From Prauserella isguenensis (GTDB taxonomy: Bacteria; Actinomycetota; Actinomycetes; Mycobacteriales; Pseudonocardiaceae): a stretch of 64,000 nt of DNA. The notes beneath the pieces are model-generated. The model saw nothing but the letters and a program-made list of their open reading frames with translations. It searched no databases and was not told the origin of the DNA. The stretch is taken from contig NZ_JACHWU010000001.1 in the NCBI RefSeq assembly GCF_014191605.1, forward strand, positions 1,612,001 through 1,676,000. The letters are read 5' to 3'. The number at the start of each line of letters is the position of its first letter. The first letter of the stretch is position 1. Both the position numbers and the translations under genes were made by a program. Positions 35,688 through 39,269 of this stretch are shown piece after piece.

Positions 35688-36557
35688 GTGACCGCTGAAC
35701 CACCGGGGCTGCTCGGGCCCGCCGAGATCCGGCAGCTCGCCGAGGAGCTCGACGTCCGCCCGACCAAGAAGCTCGGCCAGAACTTCGTGCACGACGCCAA
35801 CACGGTGCGCAGGATCGTCGAGCTGGCCGAGGTCGGTCTCGGCACCGACACCGACCCGCTCGTGCTCGAGGTGGGCCCCGGGCTGGGTTCGCTGACGCTC
35901 GGCCTCCTCGGTACCGGCGCGCGCGTGGTGGCGGTGGAGATCGACCCGGCGCTCGCGGGGCGGCTGGAACGCACGGTGGTGGCACACGCTCCCGACGCGG
36001 CGTCACGGCTGACGGTCGTCGCCGACGACGCTCTGCGCGTCGACAGCGGTCATGTCGGCGAGCCGGACGCGCTCGTCGCCAACCTGCCCTACAACGTCGC
36101 GGTTCCCGTGGTGCTCCACCTGCTCGCCGAACTGCCGTCCCTGCGGCGCGTCCTGGTGATGGTCCAGACCGAGGTGGCCGACCGCATGGCCGCGGGCCCG
36201 GGGGGCCGGGTCTACGGCGTGCCGAGCGTGAAGCTCGCCTGGTACGGCACGGTCCGCAAAGTGGCCGCCGTGCCGAGGTCGGTGTTCTGGCCGGTGCCGA
36301 ACGTCGACTCGTCGCTCATCGCCTTCGACCGCGGTCCCGAGCGCACCGATGTGGACCGTGCCACGGTGTTCGCCGTCGTCGACGCCGCGTTCGCGCAGCG
36401 GCGGAAGACGTTGCGCGCGGCTCTCGCGTCGTGGGCGGGCTCGGCCGAGCGGGCGGGGGAGATCCTGACCGCCGCCGGGATCGATCCGCGGTCCAGGGGA
36501 GAACAGCTCGACATCGACCAGTACGTGGCTATCGCGAGGGCGGCCGCCACGATGTGA
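35688..36557 (+). CDS. rsmA: 16S rRNA (adenine(1518)-N6/adenine(1519)-N6)-dimethyltransferase
   Basis: 289 aa KsgA/Dim1 enzyme. Motifs: [23 protein letters not shown] motif [29 protein letters not shown], the catalytic NLPYN block ([15 protein letters not shown]), [17 protein letters not shown] and [19 protein letters not shown] start at 35688 without a clear Shine-Dalgarno. It dimethylates two adenines near the 3' end of 16S rRNA. Order rpfB-rsmA-ispE is conserved in actinobacteria, but here a riboswitch unit has been placed between rsmA and ispE. Confidence 0.96.
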
Positions 36558-36642: not shown

Positions 36643-36650
36643 GTGGGAAT

Positions 36651-36734
36651 TCCATCCCGAGCGACCGAGAGACCTGGCTCGTCGACGTCGCAGCAACCTC
36701 CCTCGAGGACGGTGCTACCGCCAGGAGCGATGGA
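36651..36734 (+). ncRNA. SAM riboswitch candidate (SAM-I superfamily)
   Basis: P1 is TCCATC (36651-36656) with GATGGA (36729-36734). Inside, CCTGGC pairs with GCCAGG (P2). The core reads GAGAGACCTGGCTCG, then GCAGCAACC, then GGTGCTACCGCC, which corresponds to the S-box landmarks GAG, CTGGCxCG, GCAACC and GGTGCTAA. The downstream coding gene is a MetN-like protein with a methionine-sensing NIL domain, fitting SAM control. P1's 3' strand includes the first three bases of the GGAGG site of the leader peptide, so ligand binding should hide that site. Subclass is uncertain; a covariance-model scan would settle it. Confidence 0.75.
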
Positions 36735-36742
36735 GGAACGCG

Positions 36743-37062: not shown

Positions 37063-38073
37063 GTGATCACCGTCGAGAACGTCAGCAAGTCGTTCCGCAC
37101 CACCGAATCGGATGCCCCCGTGCAGGCACTGCACGACGTCAACCTGGACGTCGAAGCGGGCGCGCTGTTCGGCGTCGTCGGCGAGGAGGGCGCGGGCAAG
37201 TCGACGCTGGCGCGCTGCGTCGCGCTGCGGGAGCGGCCCGACCGCGGCTCCGTCCGCTACGACGGGCTGAACACGACCACCCTCGACGGACGCAAGCTGC
37301 GCGAGGCGCAGAGCCAGGTCGCCGTGGTCGACTCGCGGCTGCGGCCGGAACGGACCGTCGCCGGGAACATCGCCGCCCCGCTCGAACGGGTGGGCGTCGA
37401 CGGCACGCGCAGGAGGCAGCGCGTCGCCACGCTGCTGGATGTCATCGGCCTGAGCCGTGCCGCAGCGCAGGTTCCCGCCGACCTGACGCCGGGGCAGCAG
37501 CGCCGGGTGTCGGTGGCGCGAGCACTCGCGGGCGGGCCCGCATTGCTGCTCGCCGACGACCCGACGTCCGGCGTCGACGCCGACGAGAGCGGCGCGGTGC
37601 TGTCGGTGCTCGACCGTGCGCGCGCGGAACTGGGCGCCACCGTGCTGTTGACGACGTCGGACGCCGGGGTGGCTGGTCGCGTGTGCGACGACGTGGCGCT
37701 GCTCGACCACGGCTCGGTCGTCGAGAGCGGCAACCTGCTGACGCTGGCGGGCACGCGCGGCAGCCGGATCGCCGACGAACTGCTCCCGTCGGTGGAGACG
37801 TCCCCGTCCGAGGCGGCGCGGTTCGACGTGGTGGTCGACGTCGTGCTCGTCGGCTTCGCCTCGGTCGGTGCGCTCCTGCCGGAGGCGGGCAGCCGCTTCG
37901 GCGTCGAGATCGCGACGATCGGCGGCGGCCTGACGCGGTTCGGGGACACGCCGGTGGCGCGATTCCGCATCGGCCTGCGGGGGCAGCGGGCCGATGCGGC
38001 GTTGGCGTGGATGGCCGAGCGCGGCGCCCACGTCACGCACACCCTCTGCGGTCTGCGCACCGTCGCCGCCTGA
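37063..38073 (+). CDS. Orphan MetN-like ABC protein with NIL domain, degenerate ATPase motifs
   Basis: 336 aa. Overall it follows MetN: an ABC domain (about 1-235) then a C-terminal NIL domain (about 252-335; [23 protein letters not shown]) that binds methionine in transporters. Walker A is normal ([10 protein letters not shown]46). The other motifs are altered: the Q-loop position reads VVDSR (Gln replaced by Asp90), the signature is LTPGQ instead of LSGGQ, Walker B is LLLADDP (catalytic Glu to Asp166), and the H-loop is TTSD (His to Ser199). No metI or metQ is adjacent. It may bind ATP without normal hydrolysis. SAM riboswitch and leader peptide lie upstream. Confidence 0.82.
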
Positions 38074-38276: not shown

Positions 38277-39269
38277 GTGCTTGCCGTCGTACCGACCCCC
38301 GTGACCGTCACGGTGCCGTCCAAGATCAACGTGCACCTGGCGGTGGGGCCCGCGCGCGACGACGGGTATCACGAGCTGACGACCGTGTTCCAGGCGTTGT
38401 CGTTGACCGACACCGTGACCGTGTCGGCGGCGGAGGAGTCGTCGCTGCACGTGGTCGGCGAGGGCGAGAAGATCGTGCCCCGCGACGAGAGCAACCTGGC
38501 GTGGCGCGCGATCGACGTCCTCGCGGAGCACCTGGACACGACCCCGGCGGAGCTGGGCCCGGTGCGGATCGCGCTGGAGAAGGGCATCCCGGTCGCCGGC
38601 GGTATGGCGGGCGGGAGCGCCGACGCCGCGGGGACGCTCCTCGCTCTGTCGACACTGTGGAAGCTCGATCTCTCGCGCGACGAGCTCACGCGGCTGGCGG
38701 CCAAACTCGGCAGCGACGTACCGTTCTCCCTGCTCGGTGGCACCGCGCTCGGCACGGGCCGCGGCGAGGAGCTGCTGCCGGTTCTGACGCGGCACACGTT
38801 CCACTGGGTGCTCGCGTTCGCGCAGCGCGGCCTGTCGACGCCGCGGGTGTACAAGGAGCTGGACCGGCTGCGCGACGTCGGTGAGCCGCCGCCCGCCGTC
38901 GACGACCACGACGTCGTCATCGAGGCGCTGGCCTCGGGTGATCCGCATCGCCTGGCCGAACTGATCGGCAACGACCTGCAGATCGCGGCGGTGTCGCTGC
39001 GGCCGAACCTGCGGCGGACGCTGCGGGCCGGTGTCGAGGCGGGGGCCCTCGCGGGCTTGGTGTCCGGCTCCGGTCCGACGTGCGCGTTCCTGTGCGAGGA
39101 CGCCGAGTCCGCGGTGCAGGTGTCGGCGCGGTTGTCCGGTGCGGGGGTGTGCCGCACGGTGCGCGTCGCGAGCGGTCCGGTGCCAGGGGCGCGGGTGGTC
39201 GAACCGGACGGCGGCCCGTCGGGCGGCGAGCCGCCGTGGGGCCCGAACCCGCCGCAGGCGCACGCATGA
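38277..39269 (+). CDS. ispE: 4-diphosphocytidyl-2-C-methyl-D-erythritol kinase
   Basis: 330 aa GHMP kinase of the MEP isoprenoid pathway. Motifs: [29 protein letters not shown] (substrate Lys and His), [20 protein letters not shown] (ATP-binding glycine loop), [21 protein letters not shown] (Asp) and [16 protein letters not shown] start at GTG 38277 because TACCCT (38265-38270) ends six bases upstream, giving a leaderless transcript. A Pro/Gly-rich tail of about 35 residues follows the kinase fold. The 197 nt before the ABC-F gene contain only short unconvincing frames. Confidence 0.94.

Follow-up and report, generated by a model that had tools for sequence, protein, structure and literature searches.

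What does the ATPase of a methionine importer do when no importer is encoded beside it? The question is raised by a gene at 37063..38073 on the forward strand of the window (the whole 64,000-nucleotide stretch of Prauserella isguenensis DNA that was analysed). In relatives the order at this locus is ksgA, SAM riboswitch, metN, metI, metQ and ispE, and comparison of loci identifies the window gene as its one remaining transporter gene, that of the ATPase. A first-pass annotation had recognised a lone MetN-like gene with altered motifs; neither the riboswitch nor the metNIQ operon of relatives figured in it. That the protein has ceased to be a transporter subunit is well supported by genomic evidence of three kinds: the genome holds no MetQ and no convincing MetI, the catalytic motifs are changed, and the integrity of those motifs tracks the presence of metI and metQ in 167 genomes.

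The gene and its product

The open reading frame begins with GTG and encodes 336 amino acids. It is full-length and shares its start with close relatives, ruling out an assembly or frame artefact. Its product consists of an ABC_tran domain (E 1.8e-25) followed by a C-terminal NIL domain at residues 257-325 (37831..38037, forward strand; PF09383, E 1.9e-7, 31.3 bits against a cut-off of 24), both above the Pfam cut-offs. An AlphaFold2 model (mean pLDDT 91.4, 58 aligned sequences) agrees with this, as the top six PDB fold matches are E. coli MetN chains aligned over the whole length, with 3tui_D first at a TM-score of 0.81. The protein thus shares the whole-length ABC and NIL fold of MetN from MetNIQ (3TUI, 3DHW, 6CVL), which ranks first by fold and third by sequence among its PDB matches, and the first-pass description of a MetN-like protein with a NIL domain holds. 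The best model match is TIGR02314, the NCBIfam MetN equivalog, at 172 bits against a cut-off of 499.7. A canonical MetN from a complete locus, with metI and metQ behind it (L043; families checked), likewise falls short at 270, and the cut-off therefore does not discriminate here.

Residues were mapped by pairwise alignment with E. coli MetN (3dhw_C) and by an alignment of 138 family members. Walker A is intact, as had been noted (GEEGAGKS, residues 40-47, 37180..37203), and the Walker B Asp165 is retained. The four hydrolysis motifs are all changed. In the Q-loop, which is two residues shorter than in complete transporters, Asp90-Ser91 (37330..37335) replaces Pro-Gln; the lost Gln had been placed at Asp90 and aligns instead with the adjacent Ser91, the one shift needed in motif placements that the alignments otherwise bear out. 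The signature reads LTPGQ in place of LSGGQ (residues 141-145, 37483..37497), the catalytic Glu is Asp166 (Walker B pair at 37555..37560) and the switch His is Ser199 (37657..37659), all on the forward strand. Residue numbers equal those of 3dhw_C in this ungapped stretch, placing Asp166 opposite E. coli Glu166, whose change to Gln is described as hydrolysis-deficient (PMC12357092). Among seven genomes of the genus, the window's included, Asp occupies position 166 in all seven, and the signature is LTPGQ in six and LSPGQ in one.

The neighbours of the gene fix the locus. Upstream lies ksgA, also called rsmA (35688..36557, forward strand), and downstream, after a gap of 216 bases, lies ispE (38289..39269, forward strand, start approximate). 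The absence of a permease or binding protein from the locus, already remarked in the first pass, extends to the genome. Genome searches returned no match to MetQ, nothing convincing for MetI (best match E 9.7e-4, 27% identity) and one NIL protein with no second; the idea that metI and metQ are encoded elsewhere in this genome, and with it an intact metNIQ, was therefore set aside. The missing partners and the four changed motifs set the protein apart from MetN of MetNIQ. ABC cassettes themselves are plentiful, with 101 matches to the MetN model.

Complete and orphan loci in the family

The bacterial family of the window was sampled with 200 genomes, of which 167 match the C-terminal domain at E 1e-4; loci were obtained for all 167, in a first batch of 138 and a second of 29. 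The remaining 33 genomes have no match at this threshold, and the gene is therefore dispensable. Both metI and metQ follow metN in 75 of the 167 loci, where they sit between metN and ispE, and neither does in 92, hereafter called orphans; just one of the two was never found. Family members at the very same locus thus remain in metNIQ operons. Every one of the 75 complete loci (19 genera) has the four catalytic motifs intact, whereas motifs are altered in 90 of the 92 orphans (25 genera). Among the orphans the Q-loop Gln survives in 4 cases, LSGGQ in 2, the catalytic Glu in 20 and the switch His in 3. All four motifs are gone from 71, and the alignment shows a rebuilt or shortened Q-loop. Nevertheless, protein length stays at 331-354 amino acids in 90/92, with ksgA upstream in 92/92 and ispE downstream in 87/92. 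For one orphan (G045) the contig stops 143 bases past the gene, making the absence of metI less certain; for another (G087) only 417 bases follow, with ispE already visible.

Prauserella halophila, aidingensis, alba and salsuginis come nearest among the best 80 of 184 named loci. Within the same 80, metI and metQ are lacking in Prauserella, Qaidamihabitans, Amycolatopsis, Saccharomonospora, Kibdelosporangium, Labedaea, Herbihabitans, Tamaricihabitans and Umezawaea tangerina, and both are present in Lentzea, Umezawaea endophytica and Umezawaea beigongshangensis.

This motif loss bears on whether the orphan could be a multitask ATPase that powers the permease of another importer. ATPases of this kind are already known, MsmX and MsmK being genes without a permease of their own whose products energise several permeases encoded elsewhere (PMC7658222), and the window genome has many ABC cassettes. 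The same source gives MsmX the usual catalytic motifs, which the window protein does not have and of which 71 orphans keep none; the altered Q-loop and the lack of a convincing MetI in the genome also argue against such a role, which we regard as quite unlikely.

The pattern has exceptions. Two genomes (G022 and G060) lack metI and metQ and yet have all four motifs, while a congener (G089) has the whole operon; this looks like a recent loss caught before the motifs eroded. At the other extreme, the Walker A Lys is gone from six of the 92 orphans, in genera g4 and g39 (L312, L313, L342, L343, L344 and L346, which read SGTS or AGTS), with NIL domain and riboswitch kept, and two of these have also lost the Walker B Asp. 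ATP binding is therefore not needed everywhere, and the invariant Walker A suggested by 138/138 members of the first batch did not hold in the second, where 6 of 29 genomes depart from it. Two congeners of the window have shortened proteins, one of 298 amino acids with a broken NIL domain (G149, a draft genome that also carries a second, complete transporter) and one of 282 (G148).

No partner gene for the orphan protein was found in the loci. A new common partner between metN and ispE was ruled out, as the genes in the gap differ among the orphans read (four of eleven loci). In L066 (5583-7733) an opposite-strand MFS transporter and TetR regulator occupy the gap (Pfam); by eye, L067 and L068 resemble it, and L069 carries an opposite-strand histidine kinase there (Pfam). 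In a separate case (G010), a complete metNIQ stands in the locus and a half-degenerate metN copy lies elsewhere (L352 719-1735; LSRGER, DDPTSALD, THDM), adjoining an opposite-strand helicase-like gene and with no riboswitch match within 8 kb. This copy is an orphan by duplication.

A second canonical metQ-metN-metI operon was observed elsewhere in five orphan genomes (L321-L325), with no Rfam SAM match in the flanks examined. Degenerate catalytic sites in heterodimeric ABC exporters commonly carry Asp for Glu. It could be supposed that a second, complete methionine transporter uses the orphan protein as a catalytically degenerate partner or as an allosteric subunit, in an asymmetric MetN/MetN2 dimer; the Asp-for-Glu change counts in favour of this, as do the canonical operons of the five orphan genomes in which a second MetN was read (G014, G027, G062, G092 and G149) and a MetQ at E < 1e-20 elsewhere in 34/92 orphans. 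The other 58 have no MetQ at that threshold (some have weaker or partial matches) and the window genome has no MetQ at all, leaving this arrangement very unlikely.

The trees call for a minimum of about four changes in the state of metI and metQ. A KsgA and IspE tree (78 of 137 rows) gave six changes, four of them forced by well-supported branches, or nine losses on the best tree if regain is disallowed (midpoint rooting, with weak branches); a tree of MetN, built after removal of the motif columns, gave five changes, again four forced. Since a single clade (support 92, under the star level) takes in 36 of the 43 orphan rows of the MetN tree, one large old loss and several younger losses are possible. 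As to direction, a 200-genome draw of the order yielded five matches outside the family (E 1e-8 or less, best 6.7e-13). The two nearest of these MetNs, when read, had canonical motifs and ordinary metN-metI-metQ operons without an Rfam SAM hit. These outgroups favour loss as the direction, and we infer that metI and metQ were lost rather than gained. Descent of the window gene from the metN of a metNIQ operon is likewise indicated by the locus and riboswitch that it has in common with complete operons and by the canonical outgroup MetNs. A strict test of independent pairs found four on well-supported branches, three concordant, none discordant and one unchanged (p 0.25), so that the link between motifs and metI/metQ is strong by count and not significant when relatedness is fully removed.

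Riboswitch retention and selection

Between ksgA and the gene lies a SAM-I (S-box) riboswitch aptamer at 36649..36736 on the forward strand, ending 326 bases before the start codon. It scores 55.3 bits with Rfam RF00162, above the gathering score of 44.4 and over the full model (1-108), and is thus assigned to the SAM-I class by sequence match. No terminator or promoter was found in the leader by consensus scan. When the loci were surveyed with a model derived from 14 Rfam hits, all 167 family loci, the 92 orphans included, had a riboswitch upstream of the gene and on its strand. The window genome has one other SAM riboswitch, at C3:302390-302522 (L192 1501-1633). It lies where a threonine synthase gene begins (TIGR00260, 285 bits against a cut-off of 167), an unexpected target.

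Selection was compared as dN/dS (Nei-Gojobori) for pairs within genera, summarised as genus medians. Taken as a comparison and not as absolute values, since synonymous sites saturate in GC-rich genomes, the median for the ABC domain was 0.135 across 16 orphan genera and 0.059 across 13 genera of complete transporters, and the corresponding medians for NIL were 0.111 and 0.099 (Mann-Whitney p 0.0017 for ABC and 0.46 for NIL). All 16 orphan genera stand well below 1, the highest median being 0.52, and the window gene gives 0.056-0.143 against five congeners. Orphans are under purifying selection, and their relaxation relative to complete transporters is limited to the ATPase domain. We dropped the notion that NIL is held more tightly than ABC as a rule in orphans, because this is so in just 10/16 genera; NIL is much looser than ABC (0.41-0.52) in g32, g36 and g45.

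These data weigh against two other accounts. According to the first, the gene is a decaying relic, an ATPase gene left after loss of metI and metQ and on its way out. Several observations fit, among them the relaxed ATPase domain, the two shortened copies in congeners, the two genomes resembling recent loss with motifs intact, the 33 genomes without a match and the two genera without the Walker A Lys. A dying gene would sit poorly with near-constant protein length in 90/92 orphans, dN/dS well below 1 in every orphan genus, a NIL domain not relaxed overall, a riboswitch retained in every orphan and a main orphan group that covers many genera. We conclude that this is mostly not a dying gene, and decay as the explanation is unlikely. 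The second account holds that the riboswitch is what matters, through control of ispE or as a leader RNA, with the reading frame merely carried along. The universal presence of the riboswitch and the placement of ispE only 216 bases behind the gene in the window would suit it, but selection acts on the protein itself, and the riboswitch is kept in L066-L069, where an opposite-strand gene separates metN from ispE and the riboswitch is therefore not kept for ispE. We consider this account highly improbable.

A candidate role for the orphan protein

The anatomy of the protein and its locus shows that it cannot work for a transporter of its own. Purifying selection and riboswitch retention together point to a new or residual function of the orphan protein, and the riboswitch and NIL domain suggest that the function is linked to methionine or SAM. 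The best reading, at a probability of roughly 0.55, is that a transporter ATPase has been recycled into a methionine- or SAM-linked protein that regulates or binds. Sequence comparison shows several lineages that lack metI and metQ and retain metN with its riboswitch; their proteins, nearly always of full length and under purifying selection, have changed hydrolysis motifs and a relaxed ATPase domain, with NIL under about the same constraint as in complete transporters. What was retained may be a soluble protein whose regulatory or binding role is based on NIL. SAM-I riboswitches are generally OFF switches. If this one is too, the protein would be made at low SAM, and in most lineages it might hold ATP without turnover. 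By analogy with trans-inhibition of E. coli MetNI, NIL might report a methionine-related ligand by opening or closing the dimer. L-Met bound to the NIL (C2) domain of E. coli MetNI inhibits the ATPase (PMC12357092, PMC10710835); the switch mechanism is an extrapolation from that trans-inhibition (PMC10710835).

Some observations count against this reading of a recycled regulatory or binding protein, namely the Walker A Lys and Walker B Asp losses, the loose NIL of three genera, the short proteins of two congeners, the 33 genomes without a match, the less certain state of G045, the absence of a partner and the p of 0.25 in the pair test. The ligand site does too. Asn295 is described as required for L-Met binding at the E. 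coli NIL domain (PMC12357092), and its counterpart in the window protein, by alignment with 3dhw_C, is Ala284. That position holds N in 23, S in 18 and A in 18 of 59 complete transporters, and A in 49, S in 18, T in 8, N in 2, G in 1 and D in 1 of 79 orphans. The first-pass suggestion of a sensor or regulator rather than a transporter subunit therefore fares unevenly. Its negative half is well supported by the missing partners and changed motifs, and its proposal of another job is supported by selection and riboswitch retention. A specific role as methionine sensor would be a candidate at most, given Ala284 and a position that varies even in complete transporters.

A bolder proposal, which we put forward tentatively and hold to be doubtful, is that MetN-NIL has a non-transport job, probably already in complete transporters, as a soluble, SAM-riboswitch-controlled, methionine- and ATP-gated switch without need of hydrolysis. 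That job alone would keep the gene after loss of permease and binding protein, and the motifs would be shed convergently.

Partial precedents exist. Soluble ABC proteins are already known, and PhnK/PhnL and others like them use the ABC fold outside membrane transport, 7z15 being among the fold matches of the window protein. PhnK and PhnL lack a NIL domain and work together with C-P lyase. Use of NIL in methionine metabolism without transport is described for MA1822-type NIL/ferredoxin proteins, including its presence in a homocysteine-synthesis protein (PMC5764234), although these have ferredoxin where the window protein has its ABC domain. Among the open-access papers listed in the literature searches, no title or opening of an abstract named an orphan MetN, or a transporter ATPase that persists by itself in several lineages together with its metabolite riboswitch.

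The finding amounts to a natural replicated experiment, in which several lineages of one family have each kept the same ATPase without its transporter, and in every case with the RNA switch. Because the catalytic residues changed and the regulatory domain stayed, a separate cellular role of that domain becomes directly testable. The group, with Prauserella, Amycolatopsis, Saccharomonospora and Kibdelosporangium, includes antibiotic producers. For annotation it carries a warning, since these genes resemble methionine transporter ATPases though the transporter is gone.
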